Source: Thiomonas sp.
GTDB taxonomy: Bacteria; Pseudomonadota; Gammaproteobacteria; Burkholderiales; Burkholderiaceae
Direction: 5' to 3'
DNA: 18,284 nt
Assembly (NCBI GenBank): GCA_027443745.1
Contig: DAIAZB010000404.1
Span: 1 to 18,284 of the forward strand
Shown: positions 1,944 through 11,652 of the stretch, one piece after another
How positions within the stretch are numbered: position 1 is the stretch's first letter
Layout: the number at the start of each line of letters is the position of its first letter
Notes under the pieces: model-generated
What the model was told of the DNA's origin: nothing
What the model saw: only the letters and a program-made list of their open reading frames with translations
The model's database searches: none
Position numbers and translations under genes: made by a program

Positions 1944-2645
1944 TCAGTGCTCGACCGATCCCACTTTCTGATCCAGCGCCACATCCTGCTCGCGCAGCAC
2001 GCGCGCACCCATGACGACAGCGTGGATCTCCTGCTCGACGATCGCGGTCAGCTCGGCGAGCTGCTTCCTCAGCCCTTCCAGGTCACGGGCGCTTGCTGGC
2101 TTTTCGGGATCCTCCAGCAACGCCTGGACGCCAGCGAAGATGCCCTCCAGCTCCATCAGGGTGTCGAGCGATTCGCCCATGGGCGCGGGCACCTCGAGAT
2201 GCTCCTGATCACCGAACACGCCGGTCAGGAAGCCTTCCAGCTCTTCCACGCGCGCCTCGGCCAGGCAGGCCAGGCTCTCGCGCGTCGCTCGGGCCGGGAA
2301 CGCCATCAGCCGACAGGGATGACCCTCGTCCTGGTGCACGGTGAGCGCATTCCACAGTCCGTTGATCAGCGCGCCGAGGAGTTCGTTGACCGCTTCGATG
2401 GACGGAAGCGCTGGCAGCGCTCCGTTCCAGATCCGTGCCAGTGTCTTCATCGGCTGTATGGGCCCGGTCGCGCACACGGCGCCCAGAAAGTGCGTGCGCA
2501 CCGCGTGGAAGGGCATCGGGCAGTCGTAACGCTCCAGCATCGCGACGGCCTGTGCCTCGATGGTCCGGGTGCGGTTTCGCCTGGCGGCGGAGAGTTTCGA
2601 CTTCGACACGAAAGATAATCTCAGCTTCAGCTTCGATCCGGGCAC
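1944..2645 (-). CDS. Conserved hypothetical protein, 233 aa (paralogue at 15653-16335)
   Basis: The function is not recognised. The start is GTG 2645, which overlaps the end of the upstream 235-aa gene by 19 bases, so translational coupling is likely. The protein is mostly helical. It has a basic N-terminus (RRNRTRT), a conserved block MLERYDCPMPFHAVRTHFLG, then MKTLARIWNG, an acidic region with EELEGFLTGVFGDQE, and a leucine-rich C-terminus that may be coiled coil (LRKQLAELTAIVEQEI). No signal peptide or TM segment is seen. A diverged, broken copy lies on the same strand near the right end of the window, which confirms that the frame is genuinely coding. As the third gene after the large recombinase-like gene it may belong to the same mobile unit. 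That link rests on position only. Confidence 0.75.
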   Translation of the reverse strand: MPGSKLKLRLSFVSKSKLSAARRNRTRTIEAQAVAMLERYDCPMPFHAVRTHFLGAVCATGPIQPMKTLARIWNGALPALPSIEAVNELLGALINGLWNALTVHQDEGHPCRLMAFPARATRESLACLAEARVEELEGFLTGVFGDQEHLEVPAPMGESLDTLMELEGIFAGVQALLEDPEKPASARDLEGLRKQLAELTAIVEQEIHAVVMGARVLREQDVALDQKVGSVEH

Positions 2646-3334
2646 AGCACAGCGAAGCCCGGCTGCAGCGTGTACGTTTTTTGATCGGCCGCCAACGTGG
2701 CGGCTCCCGAGATCGCAATGCCGCCTGGCTCGACGGCCATACGACGCTGCTCTGTTGTCAATCCAGCGCGTACCACGTGGCCTGTGGCGAGATAGATCTG
2801 CTGGACCCCTTGGTGATCAGGCGGACTGACGGACTTCACCGCTGTGCAGAAAAACTCCAGCGTTTCGCGTGGCGTATTCACCGACTTGATCAGCAGTGCT
2901 GCTGATACCTGGGGAAATACCCAGCGCGAGCTAGTGGTCTCCACAATTAGTTCGAGCGATGGCACCTCCCGGCGTGCGTTGACCAACAGTTCAAGCACGC
3001 GCAGCGCCTCCCGATCCTTTGTCGCATCCCTCGCTATGCGGGGCATAGCTTTTGTAGCGTTGTCCTCCAGGGCAGCGATCGTTTCAAGGAAGCGCTCTTC
3101 AAGGCGTGCAGCGATTGCGCTGGAGTCGATGGCATCGACGCCGCCGTTGATGTGCAGGGCGATTGTCTCCTGGCTCAATGTTTCCCAGAGGTTGAAGCCG
3201 CCACGTGAGAACATTTTTTGAATCTGCACTAAGGTGGAAATTGCACACGCGGCCGCAGGCAGCATGTATTTTCCCTGCATCGGCTCCAGCGGAATTGACA
3301 CAGTGACATGGGGTACAGGTCCGGTTGAGTCCAT
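2627..3334 (-). CDS. Hypothetical protein, 235 aa, downstream of the large recombinase-like gene
   Basis: The family is not recognised. From ATG 3334 the protein begins MDSTGPVPHVTVSIPLEPMQ and is rich in helices (ALEDNATKAM, REALRVLELLVNARREV). It ends in a beta-rich tail (GGIAISGAATLAADQKTYTL) with no signal peptide or TM segment. No strong Shine-Dalgarno lies before ATG 3334; a downstream in-frame Met (MQGKY, residue 19) is an alternative. The gene starts about 130 bases after the stop of the 1834-aa gene on the same strand, and its 3' end overlaps the GTG of the 233-aa gene by 19 bases, so the three are probably co-transcribed. It may be an accessory protein of the same element. No biochemical role can be assigned from sequence. 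Confidence 0.7.
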   Translation of the reverse strand: MDSTGPVPHVTVSIPLEPMQGKYMLPAAACAISTLVQIQKMFSRGGFNLWETLSQETIALHINGGVDAIDSSAIAARLEERFLETIAALEDNATKAMPRIARDATKDREALRVLELLVNARREVPSLELIVETTSSRWVFPQVSAALLIKSVNTPRETLEFFCTAVKSVSPPDHQGVQQIYLATGHVVRAGLTTEQRRMAVEPGGIAISGAATLAADQKTYTLQPGFAVLCPDRS

Positions 3335-3464: not shown

Positions 3465-6400
3465 TTACGGACTCGTCAGATCCTTTTCCGACTGGGCTGC
3501 GACAGACAATGCGCTGCGTGGGACGCTGGTCACACGCTCGTAAAGCCAGACCAGGGAGCTGACCCACCGCAATGCCGCCAACAAAGAAACCCGTCGTTCA
3601 CGGGGATGGTCTTCTGGCGACGACGGCGACGCTCGCGAAAGGCTCAATCCATAGAGCCCTTGCTCGAGTGGGTGGGTGACGACGATGCGCGTTGGCGCGA
3701 TCCCGAGCGTATGAAGAGCCGCAGAGACTTCGGTTGCCTCGCGTGCGTCGAGCAGGACCAGCATCTCGCCGTGTTCGGCATCGACGAACGCACCGCTCCG
3801 GCGGGCCCAAATCGAGGCAATCGTGCGAAGGGCGTCGGATGGCTCGTGATCGAGCGCACGGAACAACGGCTCCGTGCCGGGCAAGCGACGCGGTGGCGGA
3901 AGGATCCGGATGCCTTTGCCTGGGACGCCGGCGTCCCAGGGTGCGCATTGCCGTTGCAGCGTCAGATCCTGTGCCGCGTGCTCAAGCATATTGACGAAGT
4001 TGATATCGAGGCCCACGGATAAGCCCACCTGCTCGATGGAAAGATCGGGCGATTTCTGTCGTGCGCGTGCGTACGCGGCGATATCCGACGGCATGGCGCG
4101 GCGCCCAACCGGCTGCTGCGGGGGATCCGTCCAGTGTTCGGCTGGCGCCATGGTTGGCAGCAGGCTTTGTCGTGAAAGCACGATCCCGACGCGCATACCC
4201 GGGACCGTATCCTTGGCGCGCATCCACGCCATGTCCAGCCCGGCCTTGCCAGAGAGCCTTGGTCCCGCAGCTGCGAAAAGGGCGGCCCGACTCACGGCAT
4301 CCGCAGTGCGCAGGCTGCCGGTCAGCGGAACAGCAGGATCGGCAATGTAAGCCTCGAGCGGCGTTCGGATGGCGACCTGGCCCGAATCCGCAAGTGCAGC
4401 CCGCACGTCAATGGCCCATGCCGTCGGCATCTCCTGCGCTGCGCGATGCCGGGCAAGGATTCGGCGCTTGCGTAACCAGTAGGCGTGGGCGTCCCGCAGG
4501 CCTGTTGCCCAGCGCATGAGTTCGTGGATGCGGCTGTAAAGAAGGTCTTGGGAAACACGTGCGGCGTCGCCGGGTACTTGGGCAAACAGCGGTACACGGG
4601 CGGGGGAGAGTCCAGCGCAGTGCGCACGCTCTTGCGCCAGCCACGCGATCACGTCTGTCCGGACATGGGTCCAGAGCGTACCCTGCAGGGGCGTGAACCC
4701 TTCGGAAGCGTCCGTCTTGATGGATCCGTAGCCGCCTCGCGCATGCAAGTGGACGTAGTCGGCCCCGGGGCCGAGCAAGAGCATGTCAGTCAGCAGCAAT
4801 CCGTAGACCGCGGCCGTACGCAACCCCGCCGCTTCCTGGATGACGAACGCCAGCCATCGCTGCATGGTGAGACGTTTCTGCGCCGGTGAGCCATCGGTGC
4901 GTGCCAGTTCGGATGACCGGTCTACGCTTAATGCCTTGATGACCGCTTGGACTTCGGCATTGGTGACTACGGCCGGATCGGCACTGTCGACGATCATGCC
5001 AATAGTGGCTTTGATCGCGTTCCAGTCTGCCGTGTCGCCACCGTACTGCCCGACCAGAAAGCGGTCGAATTGTTGCAAGGATTCGCTGACGCGCGCGCGG
5101 AACGCAGGAGATTTGGCGTTCAGGACGGCAAGGTAGAGCTGTGTACGCACTTCCGCATCGGCGGCATATAGAGGCGTGGCGCCAGCCAATTCAAGGAGCG
5201 CGCGGCCAAATCGCGTAATGGCCGTTTGGATGGTGCGGTGTTCGAGCTGCTTGAGGCGAACGCCGCCACGACGCAAGCGATCCAATGCAAAGGCGACCAG
5301 CAGTCCAACGTTGCTCTGTGCAGTTTGTTGATCAAGCAGATGTTCGAGCTCTCTCGCCAGCGCTGTTCTCCACCCGCGTCGTCCCTTGCCGGCCTTGCCC
5401 CGCATCGCGGCGAACTTGGCAGGATTGAGCACCGATGCGAGCCGTCCATAGGCCAAACGTGCATAGGCCGGACGCGGGACGGGTTTGTCGTCTGATGCGG
5501 ATCGGTCATGGCGGACATCGACGGCCGGGCGCCGCGCAGTGTTGTCCGGATTGGTCTCTGCTGGCCAGTCACCGTCCAGCGCAAGGCAGCGACGGGCAGC
5601 AACCGTATGTAGCGTTGCCTCGTCGAGGAGTAACACCCGCTCCGTACCGGTCAGCTCGATCCGACCCGCAGCGCGCGCAAGGCTCTCGATGCGTGCCAAT
5701 GACACCGAGTCGTCGGCGTCCTGGTCCCAGCCAGGAAAGCGGCTGCGAAGCCAGCCAGCGACAAGAGCGGGGGTGGGTGGATGGGCTGTTGGTGCCAAGT
5801 GCGCGCGCTGCGCGAGCACGATGGCAGGAATACCCCCGAACACCATCTGGAATGACGTTGCCCCCAACATTGCATCCAGGCGCAAGATACCCGGCCGTTC
5901 GGCGACGCGGGCGGCGGTAGCGGCAGCGCGCACGGCCGCATCAGCCCAGATTGCACGTCGATACGGCGAGTGGATCAGTACAGTCAGCCAGGCCAGGGTG
6001 CGCATGGCATGGCCGTCATGCAGATCGTTCATCAGAGCCTCGCGCACGTGCTCGGCCTGTCGCACGGCCATGCCCAGTCCTGGCATGAACGGCGTTGGCT
6101 GGCCTGTCAGCGAAAGCACCGGAACCCGGGGTAGAGGGCCCCGGGTGAGACCTTCGCCATGGCTGTGGCGCAACAGCCGGACGAGTTCCGTGCGGGCGAC
6201 GATGGCCTTCAGTGGGGACGCATTCGCTGCATGGGTGAGTTTGCCCGTCTGGTCTTCGCACGCAGAGAGCGTGTGGGTTAGTAGTAGGTCGAGGACAGCC
6301 TCATCGATTTCGATGATGCGGGGCGTCCGCGCGCGCGGCTTGGACGTGTCGGCGTCCATGGCGCGTCCACCCCCAGCATCCTGATCGTGCGTTCCCACGT

Positions 6401-8969
6401 CTCGGTGGGCATCCAAATCGACTTCGCTGGTCCGGACGAGGCAGTGGCGCGACTGATCGAATGTCAACATCGGCACCACCTTGGTAAAGGCGCGTGCAAG
6501 GTTTGGCAGCAGCTTGGCTCGCACCTCCTTTCGCGTCGTTCGCATCGACTCACGAACGTCGCGCAGGTCCGCATCGAAGTGGGCGCGATGCTCGCGTTCA
6601 CGAACGGACCAATCCTCCAACGGCGGCATCGGAATACCCCGCCAGCTCCAGGCAGTCATGTGCTCACCGCCGACCATCCATTCATCTTCGACCAGAAACG
6701 CATCGAGCGCAGGGGCAAGGCGTGAACCAAGTTCTGCAGGTGCATATGGAGACAGATCCGCAGTGGCATAGGCGGGGCAGGTGACCCAGCCCATCTGGGC
6801 GTTGCGTAGTTCGGGCTCGATCCCGCACCTTTGCAGTGCATGGTTCAGGCGATGGCGATACCAGTTGTCATGTGCACGCAGAGCTTCCGGCATGGTCTGC
6901 CGGACCTCCATCATCGTCAGCGCCACGGGAGTCTGGTCGCCAGGTACGTCAAATAGCGCGGCTTGGCCTCCCAGTATGGTGTCAATCAGTGCCTTGTCCT
7001 GCGGCGAGGCCGCTGACATCTCGCGCATTTCGTGGAGTGCGTCGAGGAACACGCGCAGGGCGCCGATCCAGCGCCGCCCTGTGCCCGCCAGTCGGTATCG
7101 TCGCAATGGGTCGGCACGCTTGTCGCTAAGTACAACCAGCGCGTGCTCTGGCACGACATCGTAAAGTCGCAACTGCCCGATAGCATCGACGGGGCGGTGG
7201 CCTGTTACCGCCATCAGAGCACCAGCAAGGTAATTGCGGTGAGCTGTCCAGCGCGCGCGCAAGGTAGCGTGCTTGCTGCGATCCAGCGAATGGCGCATCT
7301 TGCGTAGCAGGCGTGGCCATTGTTGCGCTGCTGTCGCACTCAAGACGAGCAGGGAGCCCAGATGGACCTCGCTGTCCAACGCAGCAGCGCGCGGCATCGA
7401 TGCGCCCGGGAACCAGTCAGTTTGGATCGCGCGTACCACTCGGGTGATATCCGATTGGCGTGGAGCCGAGTAGTACGTCGGAGCAGTCGATAGCGAAAAT
7501 GCATCGCCCATCGCGAGTTGCGCAACATCGGCGCCCAGTTGTGCAGCGATCCTACTGGCCAAAGCCAGGCGAAACCTTTGCGATCCCACCGCCAGGTCCG
7601 GATTGAGTAACCGCATCGTGGATTGCAGTCGTTCAATCGTTTCTTCTCGTCGTTCGTGCAGTGGCAGTACAGGCTCACCTTCGACAGCGGCATGAGTTAG
7701 ACCGCGTAGCGCTGCGTCGACGGATTCGGGCAGAGGCCACGCGATCACCATCCCGCACGGTTCGAGCCAGTCCTTCAGTCTTGGATCCGGGCGCACTGCA
7801 TGCGGCGGGCGAAGTACAGGCCGATAAAGCACGGCAGCATTCGGGTCCATGCAGGTGGTTCCAGGGCTTGGCGCTGTGCCCCAGCGCAAGCTGGAGAGGT
7901 CCATTTCCCGAACGCCTGTTGAAATGACGAGAAGCAATGCAGCGCAGGCTTCCGCTTGCATGAGGTTTGCTTTTCGAAGTGCTCCAGCATGCGTCTCAAG
8001 AGCGCGTTCAACGAACGCACGAATGGCGTCGCCCGGGAGCCAGCGGTCTGCTGGCATCAGCAGATCACCTTCACTCCGCCGCCAGAGTGTTTGCGCGCGC
8101 GCAAGATCCAACTGAACGTGATGGTCGCGCGGGATCACGTCGGCCGGCTCTGCAATTGTGAGGCCGGTTGTGATCTCCACTCCATCATCCGGATCACAAG
8201 CGATTGCATCACCGCTAGGATGCAGGTGCTGGAGCGGCGCCTCAGGGTCGTCCTGAAGGATGCTCCTGGGCATCAAGTCGATGAGATGCGCCGCGCCGCG
8301 TCGCTGATAGCGCAACACTTGCTCGCGGAGCCATAGCCGCCAGAGTCGGCTGAACCCTAGATGCTCTGGCTCACGGACACCACAAAGGATCTCCTGCATA
8401 GCGGAGACCAGTTCACTGGGCGAGGTAACGCCATTGATTGTGTGGCGAAGCGCCGAGCTCTGGTCCTCGGTTTCGTCGGGATTTTCAGCAGCCTTGCCGG
8501 CCCTGCGCAGTGCCCCTCGAATCATGCTTGCGAGTTCAACCAGGCGATGAGGGGGGTGCGTCGGAGTTCTTTCGAGTGCGGCCTCGCACAACAGGCCAGC
8601 AAGTAACTCGAGGTCTGGAAGATCCAGAAGGTTTCGCCCACCTAGTTCCACTACGGTGAAAAAAATAGGTGATGCATTACGGCTTGCCCCGGATAAGCGC
8701 GCTAGAGAGCCCTTGCGCCAGCGCTCTAGAGCATGACGGCAGGGTTCGACTCGAAGCCGCAGGTTTCGGAATACCGCGTAGCGCTCAAGTGTGGCCGCAG
8801 CGTCTTCACGGCCCAAGCAACTCAGCAGACCGTTCGCAAAGGCTGCACGGTGGGCGCGGGTGAGTTGCACGCGCCCGCCAATATGCTGAAGATCCGCTGC
8901 CAAGGCCTCTGCCAGAGCATCGCCTTCAGAGTCGTTGAATTGGGTAATGGGGGCGGCGAGCGCAACCAA
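3465..8969 (-). CDS. Giant protein (1834 aa) with three tandem tyrosine-recombinase-like cores
   Basis: Residue positions are read by eye. Core 1: box I ISTGVREMDLSSLRW (Arg354); box II SQRFRLALASRIAAQLG (Gln464/Arg467), AMGD (488-489) and STAPTYYS (Tyr499). Core 2: MAVTGHRPVDAIGQLRLYDV (Arg592), VVLSDKRAD (Lys617), box II NWYRHRLNH (706-710) and MGW (727-728); the nucleophile is unclear (Tyr734 or Tyr742). Core 3: a helical core-binding-like region at about 1205-1350, then AAGLRTAAVYGLLLTDM (Arg1384), GSIKTDASEGFTPL (Lys1418), HAYWLRKR (Arg1500) and SGQVAIRTPLEAYIAD (Tyr1541). A possible HTH lies near 1640-1662. Core 3 keeps Arg, Lys, Arg and Tyr but its two His positions look replaced. Typical family members have one core in 300-700 aa. 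The start is TTG 8969, directly after an in-frame TGA and without a clear RBS, so the N-terminus is uncertain. No frame break interrupts 5.5 kb, which argues for a functional gene. Likely role: DNA recombination by a mobile element (inferred). Confidence 0.8.
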   Translation of the reverse strand: MVALAAPITQFNDSEGDALAEALAADLQHIGGRVQLTRAHRAAFANGLLSCLGREDAAATLERYAVFRNLRLRVEPCRHALERWRKGSLARLSGASRNASPIFFTVVELGGRNLLDLPDLELLAGLLCEAALERTPTHPPHRLVELASMIRGALRRAGKAAENPDETEDQSSALRHTINGVTSPSELVSAMQEILCGVREPEHLGFSRLWRLWLREQVLRYQRRGAAHLIDLMPRSILQDDPEAPLQHLHPSGDAIACDPDDGVEITTGLTIAEPADVIPRDHHVQLDLARAQTLWRRSEGDLLMPADRWLPGDAIRAFVERALETHAGALRKANLMQAEACAALLLVISTGVREMDLSSLRWGTAPSPGTTCMDPNAAVLYRPVLRPPHAVRPDPRLKDWLEPCGMVIAWPLPESVDAALRGLTHAAVEGEPVLPLHERREETIERLQSTMRLLNPDLAVGSQRFRLALASRIAAQLGADVAQLAMGDAFSLSTAPTYYSAPRQSDITRVVRAIQTDWFPGASMPRAAALDSEVHLGSLLVLSATAAQQWPRLLRKMRHSLDRSKHATLRARWTAHRNYLAGALMAVTGHRPVDAIGQLRLYDVVPEHALVVLSDKRADPLRRYRLAGTGRRWIGALRVFLDALHEMREMSAASPQDKALIDTILGGQAALFDVPGDQTPVALTMMEVRQTMPEALRAHDNWYRHRLNHALQRCGIEPELRNAQMGWVTCPAYATADLSPYAPAELGSRLAPALDAFLVEDEWMVGGEHMTAWSWRGIPMPPLEDWSVREREHRAHFDADLRDVRESMRTTRKEVRAKLLPNLARAFTKVVPMLTFDQSRHCLVRTSEVDLDAHRDVGTHDQDAGGGRAMDADTSKPRARTPRIIEIDEAVLDLLLTHTLSACEDQTGKLTHAANASPLKAIVARTELVRLLRHSHGEGLTRGPLPRVPVLSLTGQPTPFMPGLGMAVRQAEHVREALMNDLHDGHAMRTLAWLTVLIHSPYRRAIWADAAVRAAATAARVAERPGILRLDAMLGATSFQMVFGGIPAIVLAQRAHLAPTAHPPTPALVAGWLRSRFPGWDQDADDSVSLARIESLARAAGRIELTGTERVLLLDEATLHTVAARRCLALDGDWPAETNPDNTARRPAVDVRHDRSASDDKPVPRPAYARLAYGRLASVLNPAKFAAMRGKAGKGRRGWRTALARELEHLLDQQTAQSNVGLLVAFALDRLRRGGVRLKQLEHRTIQTAITRFGRALLELAGATPLYAADAEVRTQLYLAVLNAKSPAFRARVSESLQQFDRFLVGQYGGDTADWNAIKATIGMIVDSADPAVVTNAEVQAVIKALSVDRSSELARTDGSPAQKRLTMQRWLAFVIQEAAGLRTAAVYGLLLTDMLLLGPGADYVHLHARGGYGSIKTDASEGFTPLQGTLWTHVRTDVIAWLAQERAHCAGLSPARVPLFAQVPGDAARVSQDLLYSRIHELMRWATGLRDAHAYWLRKRRILARHRAAQEMPTAWAIDVRAALADSGQVAIRTPLEAYIADPAVPLTGSLRTADAVSRAALFAAAGPRLSGKAGLDMAWMRAKDTVPGMRVGIVLSRQSLLPTMAPAEHWTDPPQQPVGRRAMPSDIAAYARARQKSPDLSIEQVGLSVGLDINFVNMLEHAAQDLTLQRQCAPWDAGVPGKGIRILPPPRRLPGTEPLFRALDHEPSDALRTIASIWARRSGAFVDAEHGEMLVLLDAREATEVSAALHTLGIAPTRIVVTHPLEQGLYGLSLSRASPSSPEDHPRERRVSLLAALRWVSSLVWLYERVTSVPRSALSVAAQSEKDLTSP

Positions 8970-9231: not shown

Positions 9232-9271
9232 CTCATAATGGTCGGTGGTTCGAGTCCACCCATAGCCACCA
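9232..9271 (+). other. tRNA-Met-like 3' fragment, probable attachment-site remnant
   Basis: The bases read like the 3' half of an elongator tRNA-Met. CTCATAA (9232-9238) is an anticodon loop with CAT at 9234-9236. GGTGG TTCGAGT CCACC (9244-9260) is a perfect T-arm. CATAGCC (9261-9267) is the acceptor 3' strand, followed by A and encoded CCA (9269-9271). Only 5 bases separate the anticodon loop from the T-stem where about 10 are expected, and nothing upstream pairs as a 5' half, D-arm or acceptor strand. It is therefore not a functional tRNA. Such displaced 3' ends are typical of the far end of elements integrated at tRNA genes. Confidence 0.75.
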
Positions 9272-9783
9272 CCGCATCAGCGCGCCGCGCGATCCCTCTG
9301 CAACCCGCATCCCGCCTCGTTTCCCTGGCGCCGAGCGCGTTCGAGCATGCACCCGTTTGCGCGCGATTTCAAGCCTGCGTTTGGACGTCCAAATGCCCTC
9401 TGTGCCCATTCTGTGCCCAACTTCTGTGCCCACGATCTGCCAGATTGGCAGAAATGACCTCAGCATCGACGATTTTTGGGCTGACCCCTTCCCCGACTTT
9501 GGGCACAGATTTTGTGCCCATCCTGTGCCCACGAGCTCCACCCATGTGACCCCGTTCGAGCGCCCGTGGACTCGTCGATTTGCAAGGCCAATCCAGGAGT
9601 CGAATCGCGCGAGTCGACATCCTGCGATCGGGCTGCAAGGCATCGATCCAGAGTGATGCTCCATTTCCATCACCGTGTGAGCATCGACCGAATCGGATCA
9701 GCGACCCGTAGTGCGTTGCGTGGTGGCGGCGTACTGAATCGCTCTGCCTCGTGTGCGTGCCCTGAGTGCTGGGATCTGACCGT
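9272..9783. other. Gene-free stretch beside the tRNA fragment
   Basis: No coding region is supported in these 512 bases. Open frames here are the usual read-through of tRNA 3' ends (for example WLWVDSNHRPL on the minus strand, antisense to the T-arm). The notable content is the TGTGCCCA repeat set at 9401-9531. The remainder, from 9532 up to the helicase stop at 9784, shows no recognisable element. Confidence 0.6.
9401..9531. repeat. Six copies of TGTGCCCA in two clusters (candidate integrase arm sites)
   Basis: Exact TGTGCCCA occurs at 9401-9408, 9412-9419, 9425-9432, 9513-9520 and 9524-9531, and its reverse complement TGGGCACA occurs at 9500-9507. Start-to-start distances are 11 and 13 bases in the left cluster and 13 and 11 in the right cluster, a mirrored arrangement with 75 bases between the inner copies. 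The array begins 130 bases from the tRNA CCA end. Short repeated octamers near a tRNA attachment site are what arm-type integrase sites look like. No integrase gene is adjacent to them now. Confidence 0.6.
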
Positions 9784-10134: not shown

Positions 10135-11502
10135 CTAGGCGCGCGGCACGCCGCCATGCAAGTACAGCGGCTCGCGGCCCAAGCGATCTTTGAGCGGATG
10201 CGCGGCCAGCCATGCTTGGGCATCTTGCTGTGCCAAGGCGATTTGCTTTGGTGGCATGTGGGTTCTCAATAGCGCCATGGCACCTTGTGTAACGGTGTAG
10301 TTCTCGGCCCCGGGCGCAGACCCGATTTGTGCAAGCTCAAACCATGTGTAGGCTTTCACAAGATTCTGGGGAACGCCTTGCGCCTTGGCGTCCATCATGC
10401 CGAGGTTGACCTGCGCGGTCGGGTTTTCGCGCGCCGCCGCCAGCAGGAACCACTTGCGCGCCCTGGCATAGTTCAGTGGAACGCCTGCGCCGACTTCATA
10501 CATCACGCCGAGCGCGACTTGCGCATCGACGCTGCCTCGCGGCGCAGCACGGTGAAACCAATAGAAGGCGCGGGTCAAATTGTGCGGGACATCGACACCG
10601 TGTTCGTCAATTAAGCCAAGGCCGTATTCCGCATCGGGGTCACCAAACATGGCCGCCCTGTGGTACCACTTCGCCGCCTTGCTGTCGTTCCGGGGAACGC
10701 CACTACCCAAGTAGTACGCGCGCGCGACGCCATCCACCCCATCGAGATTGCCTTGACGGGCTGCCGCTCGATACCACTTGAACGCCTTCCCTGGGTTCCG
10801 TGCGATGCCATGACTCGTGGCGTAAAGATACGCCAGTTGGACTTGGGCTTGCACGTCACCATCCATGGCAGCAAGGCGATACCACTGCTCGGCCTGGGCG
10901 GCGCTTTCTGGCACACCATGGCCTGACTGATAGTCACTGGCCAGGTCGATCTGTGCGTCTCGATCACCCGCCGCCGCAGCAAGTCGATACCACTTGTCCG
11001 CCTTGGACTCATCCTTCGGCACGCCGCGCCCCAGTGCGTAGGCGACCCCAAGGGCTGTCTCGGCTTCCGCATCACCTTGCTTTGCATCACGCCGATACCA
11101 CTTCACCGCCTTGGCGTAGTCTCGAGGAACACCCTGACCGTAGTAGTAGACATTGCCGAGGTTGTATTCGCCGACAGGATCACCGTGGTCCGCAGCCGAT
11201 TTGTACCAATACAGTCCCTTGGCATCGCTCTGCGGTACGCCGCGTCCTTTTTGGTAGAGCCAACCGAGGTTGACCTGGGCGTGCACATCGCCGGCATGCG
11301 CGGACAGGCGATACCACTTCGCCGCCTTGACGTCGCTCTTCGGAACCCCTTCGCCAGTCTCGTACATCACGCCGAGGTCGTTCTCGGCGACCGGGTTGCC
11401 CTTGCGTGCTTCCCGGCGATCAAGCTTGGCGATTTCAGCCTGGGGATGGCAACCAGTCAATAGCGCCGCAAGTGCGCAAATCGCGAATGCGCGATGTATC
11501 AT
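10135..11502 (-). CDS. Sel1-repeat (TPR-like) lipoprotein
   Basis: The preferred start is ATG 11502 (455 aa). It gives a lipoprotein signal, MIHRAFAICALAALLTGC, with the lipobox LTGC, and has AAGGGG 5 bases upstream. Longer in-frame starts up to 11616 would bury the signal. After a short linker come about ten consecutive 36-residue Sel1 repeats, each of the form AxxxLGxxYxxGxGVPxxxxKAxKWYxxAAxxGD. Repeats 8 and 10 are the most divergent. The C-terminal tail (about 60 residues) has no repeats. Sel1 solenoids act as protein-protein scaffolds, in bacteria often in envelope stress or secretion contexts; the partner here is unknown. The gene lies 150 bases after the 231-aa gene on the same strand. 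Its stop TAG 10137-10135 sits exactly at the joint with the helicase fragment, so its last residues might be altered by the rearrangement. Confidence 0.9.
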   Translation of the reverse strand: MIHRAFAICALAALLTGCHPQAEIAKLDRREARKGNPVAENDLGVMYETGEGVPKSDVKAAKWYRLSAHAGDVHAQVNLGWLYQKGRGVPQSDAKGLYWYKSAADHGDPVGEYNLGNVYYYGQGVPRDYAKAVKWYRRDAKQGDAEAETALGVAYALGRGVPKDESKADKWYRLAAAAGDRDAQIDLASDYQSGHGVPESAAQAEQWYRLAAMDGDVQAQVQLAYLYATSHGIARNPGKAFKWYRAAARQGNLDGVDGVARAYYLGSGVPRNDSKAAKWYHRAAMFGDPDAEYGLGLIDEHGVDVPHNLTRAFYWFHRAAPRGSVDAQVALGVMYEVGAGVPLNYARARKWFLLAAARENPTAQVNLGMMDAKAQGVPQNLVKAYTWFELAQIGSAPGAENYTVTQGAMALLRTHMPPKQIALAQQDAQAWLAAHPLKDRLGREPLYLHGGVPRA

Positions 11503-11652
11503 AAGTCCCCTTCCATCCATGCCCCGGCAGAGTTTTCTGCGAATGCGTTGCGAACGTCGCCAAAAAGCAAGATCTTCGGGATGCCTATGGCAGAATCGAG
11601 CGTCGGATCGCGGCATGCCACCCAGCCTACGATGAAGCAGTGTGTGCGTTGT

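Follow-up and report, generated by a model that had tools for sequence, protein, structure and literature searches.

A single chain with three tandem tyrosine-recombinase cores, the probable integrase of tRNA-bounded genomic islands

The window (the whole stretch of DNA analyzed, 18,284 nt) encodes one long chain, very probably an integrase through which a mobile genomic island inserts site-specifically at a tRNA anticodon loop, in this case that of tRNA-Met. Its three tyrosine-recombinase cores are fused here and are spread elsewhere over two overlapping genes. The features of the window are collected in Table 1.

Table 1. Positions of the recombinase, its parts and associated features in the window
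Feature	Position	Strand	Remarks
Three-core recombinase ORF	3465-8969	-	1834 codons from the listed TTG; true start may differ
Core 1, catalytic fold	7470-8051	-	residues 307-500
Core 2	6735-7352	-	residues 540-745
Middle region, long helix and helix/strand domain (about residues 920-1115)	5331-6602	-	residues 790-1213
Core 3, core-binding and catalytic domain	4281-5330	-	residues 1214-1563
Adjacent downstream ORF (235 aa), a candidate partner	2627-3334	-	against the partner family: hhalign E 0.027, probability 1.8%
tRNA-Met 3' half, anticodon loop (CTCATAATG, 9232-9240) to CCA	9232-9271	+	element/flank junction

Three predicted recombinase folds in one chain

The fusion is conserved. The single reading frame is not a product of chance, because 32 database proteins longer than 1,600 aa are kin to the window protein and a single chain alignable with it was present at 20 of the 33 loci examined; chains of this family are 1,680-1,925 aa long. 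A protein search with the window protein returned 10 relatives, of which one was 94% identical, eight were 33-38% identical over 80-93% of the length and one was 29% identical over 73%; one of the 10 bears the source name 'integrase'. Searching the protein database with an alignment gave two proteins, one of them new, and a search started from a second subfamily listed 24, one of which was the twin of the query itself. Profile libraries detect the family poorly: the window protein had no match in Pfam, NCBIfam, PHROGs or the PDB sequences at E values up to 1, and PF00589 matched 3 of the 11 members of family alignment A1 weakly, with a best E of 0.0032.

Scanning genome contigs with the single window sequence gave no match; the scan with an alignment gave four named loci, in Dyella solisilvae (L001), a Lysobacteraceae MAG (L002), a Dokdonella MAG (L003) and Arenimonas metalli (L004). 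A profile matched GTDB genomes in the family of genome G001 (11 of 233), in its order (32 of 398) and in its class (10 of 369). Many order-level matches were weak and came from integrases of ~500 aa aligned to core 3 only, and an open frame of at least 1,732 codons lay under the match in 11 of the 398 order genomes. From this distribution the host of the window probably belongs to the Lysobacterales. Three loci of the first set of 15 (L021, L026 and L029) held fragments or cut frames only; the profile matched 16 of the 18 loci of the second set, L082 and L084 giving no match. A viral origin was set aside, as two scans of viral contigs found no relatives. A plasmid search with the window protein found none at E 1e-5, and plasmid-borne kin were reached by way of distant relatives. 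A chain of the 1683-aa Acinetobacter type is present in 42 of 72,556 plasmid records at 84.9-100% identity to the query copy, with insertion sequences interrupting some copies and others divided into pieces. In six pairs among four Acinetobacter chains the overall dN/dS was 0.35-0.42; the middle segment gave 1.0-1.3 in three of the six pairs, calculated from 2-8 synonymous changes.

AlphaFold models combined with structure search placed core 1 (residues 307-500), core 2 (540-732) and core 3 (1214-1563) in the tyrosine-recombinase/topoisomerase-IB fold, the outcome that the original prediction had anticipated for all three. The model of residues 280-800 had a pLDDT of 84 and a pTM of 0.82, and the best Foldseek E for this core-1/2 model was 2.1e-3. 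The second model, which covers core 3, was weak overall (pLDDT 69, pTM 0.39); its core-3 catalytic domain scored mostly 72-94 in pLDDT, with 55 in one loop and 36-63 around Tyr1541. Structure matches to core 3 include XerH, Cre and an integron integrase, and PF00589 scored above the cut-off in core 3 of 5 of the 7 split or distant chains scanned. Profile links between the cores are modest, with E ~5e-4 (single comparison) and a probability of ~31% for cores 1 and 2 and for cores 2 and 3. Profile comparison linked the middle region to none of the three cores, and the matches listed by the VIA structure search were taken up by core 3. A possible fourth core in residues 900-1130 is suggested by predicted secondary structure, but profile comparison with the cores and the N terminus gave no match (E of 0.11 to 0.28). 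Predicted structures, structure searches, profile comparisons and conserved residues together support the proposal of three tandem cores in one chain, and the three box-I motifs on which it was built are present.

In L075, L076, L078, L079 and L083 and in plasmids of Vibrio cyclitrophicus and Acinetobacter towneri the same cores are divided between two genes that overlap or adjoin; the first encodes cores 1 and 2 and the second encodes core 3. L080 is split otherwise and has cores 2 and 3 both in its second gene. A quick core-3 tree of 44 rows took 32 from the 53-row alignment described below, together with one Acinetobacter chain, ten split loci and one outgroup. The fused or split label requires three changes on this tree, at least two of them forced by starred branches, and many end branches are long. 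The Acinetobacter fused form clusters with the split loci L081 and L082 (95, starred); this placement and the forced label changes point to probably more than one event of fusion or fission. Ten split-gene proteins gave no NCBIfam match under the name gamma-mobile-trio.

The original prediction regarded a single fused chain as a new architecture. No paper describing tandem recombinase cores within a single chain came up in the open-licence PMC literature searched, but RefSeq names many of the plasmid-borne kin 'tyrosine-type recombinase/integrase'. The architecture is conserved, real and apparently undescribed, inside a known kind of enzyme.

Insertion at tRNA genes and island cargo

The tRNA-Met remnant of the window lies 262 bp from the recombinase start, on the opposite strand. 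In a strict scan for T-arm plus acceptor, 13 of 33 loci had a tRNA 3' part no more than 1 kb upstream of the recombinase, always on the opposite strand, at 215-342 bp in 12 of them and at 596 bp in one. As background, the scan found 0 such parts in the 290,056 bases of these loci that lie more than 1.5 kb upstream or more than 7 kb downstream of the recombinase start. These 13 loci do not represent 13 independent events, because some are close kin (L075/L076). The other 20 loci had no remnant in the strict scan, and L087 among them was positive by a looser pattern. The 13 remnants and that of L087 extend back to the anticodon loop and are of the types tRNA-Met, Arg, Thr and Pro, with the loop read by eye. 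Rfam gave no match to the window. The window has no second CTCATAATG, and its element therefore probably extends past base 1.

Relatives of the chain lie in islands bounded by tRNA sequence at both ends. In genome G195 the remnant (3,294,773) and an intact tRNA-Met (3,330,674) are ~35.9 kb apart, and in G001 the corresponding positions are 751,696 and 818,943, ~67.2 kb apart. Empty sites were found for the G195 island: 5' flank, intact tRNA-Met and 3' flank are contiguous in four of the eight G195 relatives inspected (L126, L127, L128 and L130), which is a classical sign of insertion at a tRNA. Among the other relatives, L131 has an insert of ~0.8 kb and three have no tRNA or 5' flank within the 1.5 kb covered. 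The cargo of the ~36-kb G195 island includes MzaA-E, Vsr, two cytosine methylases and a type II restriction enzyme, and BREX genes adjoin an Acinetobacter plasmid copy of the recombinase. The family marks islands with anti-phage systems, Mza in the one case and BREX in the other.

Some further features of the tRNA sites were recorded. Five of six tRNA-Met remnants lack 3-5 nt right after CTCATAATG (5 nt in the window and G195, 4 in G003 and G248, 3 in G198), and that of G001 lacks 0. At positions 9218-10520 of L026 (G198) just 1.2 kb separates an intact tRNA-Met from a remnant, and an N-terminal recombinase fragment lies in that interval; the locus resembles what a deletion in such an island would leave behind. 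In G001 (C10, 703158-751696) the host 3' flank lies 48 kb past the remnant, so another island seems to be stacked at the same tRNA. ORFs of this stacked stretch in L001 have the look, by eye only, of type I restriction genes.

Catalytic residues and possible division of labor among the cores

Conservation was read from a 53-row alignment of 33 proteins longer than 1,600 aa (the window protein included) and 20 loci, which contains some near-duplicates such as P0013 and L023. By this alignment core 3 alone among the three has the full catalytic set: Arg1384, Lys1418, Arg1500 and Tyr1541, the four residues initially assigned to it, are present in 53 of 53 rows. The third box residue at 1531 is His in 48 rows and Gln in five, and the window protein has Gln1531. 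The full core-3 set was also found in seven of eight distant or split chains; the Lys reading for L081B came from a spurious second stretch.

Core 1 lacks a complete tyrosine-recombinase set in this alignment. Tyr500 is invariant (53/53), Arg467 is present in 49 rows and Arg354 in 16, and all three are kept together in 15 of the 53. Four rows carry another residue in place of Arg467, and so do three distant members, which have Ser, Lys and Ser. There is no conserved Lys, and no column from 360 to 412 has Lys in more than 18 of the 53 rows. The core-1 assignment of Arg354, Arg467 and Tyr499 in the original prediction held for Arg467 but not for the other two, as Arg354 is a minority residue and the invariant Tyr is Tyr500; Tyr499 was found in 15 of 23 rows of an earlier alignment. 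The invariant columns of that 23-sequence alignment include Y500, R592, K617, N702, R705, R1384, K1418, R1500 and Y1541. Core 1 could be aligned at the Tyr position in five distant or split chains, and all five have Tyr.

Core 2 is incomplete in a different way. Arg592, Lys617 and Arg705 are present in 53 of 53 rows, Asn702 is present in 48, and residue 728 is His in 33 and Trp in 20. The second Arg, which core 2 had been thought to have lost (Asn709), is Arg705 in an N-x-x-R-H motif; Asn709 is not at the Arg-II position, and it is the conserved Tyr that is missing. At its expected place, 737/738 (9-10 residues after the His/Trp), mostly Ser/Ala and Asp/Asn are found, and residues 727-745 have no Tyr at all in 21 of the 53 rows. 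Column 736 has Tyr in 15 rows and column 734, six residues after the His/Trp, has Tyr in 29, so core 2 might own a nucleophile in part of the family. The Arg, Lys, Asn, Arg and His are present in five of eight core-2 chains of distant or split members, the other three being partly unaligned or misaligned. The Lys motifs reported for cores 2 and 3 were recovered as Lys617 and Lys1418, and the idea that one or two cores are not self-sufficient fits the incomplete sets of cores 1 and 2.

In the mechanism that we propose, the chain itself would perform integration and excision. Core 3 would cut DNA, and its built-in partner, cores 1 and 2, may bind the att core's other half. One chain would span one att core: core 3 would occupy one half-site, cores 1 and 2 the opposite one. 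Two chains could form the usual four-subunit-like synapse. The available text of PMC3646895 describes four cleavages per recombination by four monomers in tyrosine recombinases, mostly in cis and in trans for Flp and the SSV1 integrase.

How cutting is shared among the cores admits more than one reading. Core 3 may be the sole cutter, with cores 1 and 2 as non-catalytic modules for DNA binding or assembly, like GinC of the GInts or Tfp of the SEs, and with their kept residues serving DNA binding. The absence of the first Arg from core 1 in 37 of 53 rows and of a conserved core-1 Lys, the missing Tyr of core 2 and the replacements of Arg467 all point this way, and Tfp and GinC are described in the available part of PMC10214605 as fold proteins without catalytic residues; for GinC, the accessible text of the GInt paper says only that the first Arg is missing (PMC5385486). 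An invariant Tyr500 would however be needless in a merely structural core 1, as would the invariant Arg-Lys-Arg of core 2. Alternatively, cores 1 and 2 may form one joint active site, in which Tyr500 would enter the core-2 Arg-Lys-Arg pocket as in the trans cleavage by Flp, and core 3 would be a second, self-contained site. This arrangement is plausible but less likely than not. The losses in the two cores are complementary across the 53 rows, distant members gave a core-1 Tyr in five chains and the core-2 residues in five of eight, and trans cleavage has precedents in Flp and the SSV1 integrase (PMC3646895, in the portion available), but 15 rows retain the Arg354-Arg467-Tyr500 combination within core 1, and the Tyr at column 734 could supply core 2 with its own nucleophile. 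If a joint site were true, the chain would be a covalently linked asymmetric pair of active sites, two chains would provide four cleavages, and the way in which recombinase trios serve four DNA strands would be explained.

It is very unlikely that the chain is a polyprotein cut post-translationally into separate recombinases; the occurrence of the same cores as two overlapping genes is compatible with this, but no result obtained favors processing. A recombinase-fold regulator in place of a recombinase is highly improbable. The phage repressor SroF, whose structures 9rgl and 9rd5 were among the structure matches, is such a protein, but the complete, invariant catalytic set of core 3 and the tRNA-bounded islands argue for an enzyme. 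That a full active site is present in just one of the three cores is relevant to why certain mobile elements require three recombinases, a question still open. Because the cores are locked in a 1:1:1 ratio and the losses in core 1 complement those in core 2, point mutants of a single protein can now put this question to the test.

Related systems and neighboring genes

The available parts of PMC5385486, PMC10214605 and PMC3414803 describe GInts, SEs, RITs and Tn554 as using two or three recombinases from separate genes. As judged from sequence, the present family follows the same logic but is fused, uses tRNA anticodon loops and has no clear sequence kinship with the proteins of SE-6945, the sole set compared. 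GInt islands (ginABCD) likewise have three recombinase-fold proteins, one catalytically incomplete, at one end of a cargo-bearing island, with site-specific insertion and direct repeats (PMC5385486, available portion). By that description they have three separate genes plus ginD, whereas the present family has one chain or two genes, and the cases described insert at protein genes such as ssb rather than at tRNA anticodon loops. Separate genes of the ginA/ginB/ginC type are absent at the window, which has the single ORF, and other arrangements in the family are mostly of two genes. SEs, strand-biased circularizing elements (intA-tfp-intB-srap), similarly carry two recombinases and a non-catalytic fold protein at one end (PMC10214605, text available). 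The SE-6945 proteins (408, 581 and 720 aa) have a total length similar to that of the present chain; in hhalign comparisons they gave no match to cores 1 and 2, and IntA matched core 3 weakly (E 0.025), so that a deep kinship may exist.

RIT elements (ritABC) resemble the family in having recombinases in trio from overlapping genes. In the accessible text of PMC3414803, from which the word 'fusion' is absent, they are ~3.5 kb long with a possible catalytic motif in all three families, in contrast to one ORF here and islands of ~36 and ~67 kb in relatives. Tn554 (TnpA/TnpB/TnpC) has one ordinary and one N-terminally extended recombinase, both needed; compared by description in the available portions of PMC3414803 and PMC10214605, it has two recombinases from separate genes and not a fused three-core chain.

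A partner protein of ~240 aa is encoded downstream of the recombinase and is homologous among L001, L002, L003 and L086, as found by comparing neighbor ORFs of 120-340 aa; the candidate at the window is listed in Table 1. The small protein of the GInts, GinD, has a helix-loop-helix structure according to the available text of PMC5385486. In L081, L082, L111, L112 and L119 an ORF of 170-234 aa stands directly 5' of the recombinase genes and often overlaps them. The L081 and L082 copies of this 5' ORF are homologous, and the Vibrio copy has a weak Xre-like match below the cut-off.

Two similar modules stand on both sides within the window, at 22-1038/1944-2645 and 15653-16111/17630-18283, with 76% identity in repeat D1 and 71% in repeat D3. 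Each flanking module consists of an Arm-DNA-binding integrase part and an ORF, the left ORF being weakly UPF0149-like. Short TGTGCCCA-type repeats lie by the junction at 9399-9529, and a Sel1-repeat protein is encoded at 10135-11616, beyond the element boundary.
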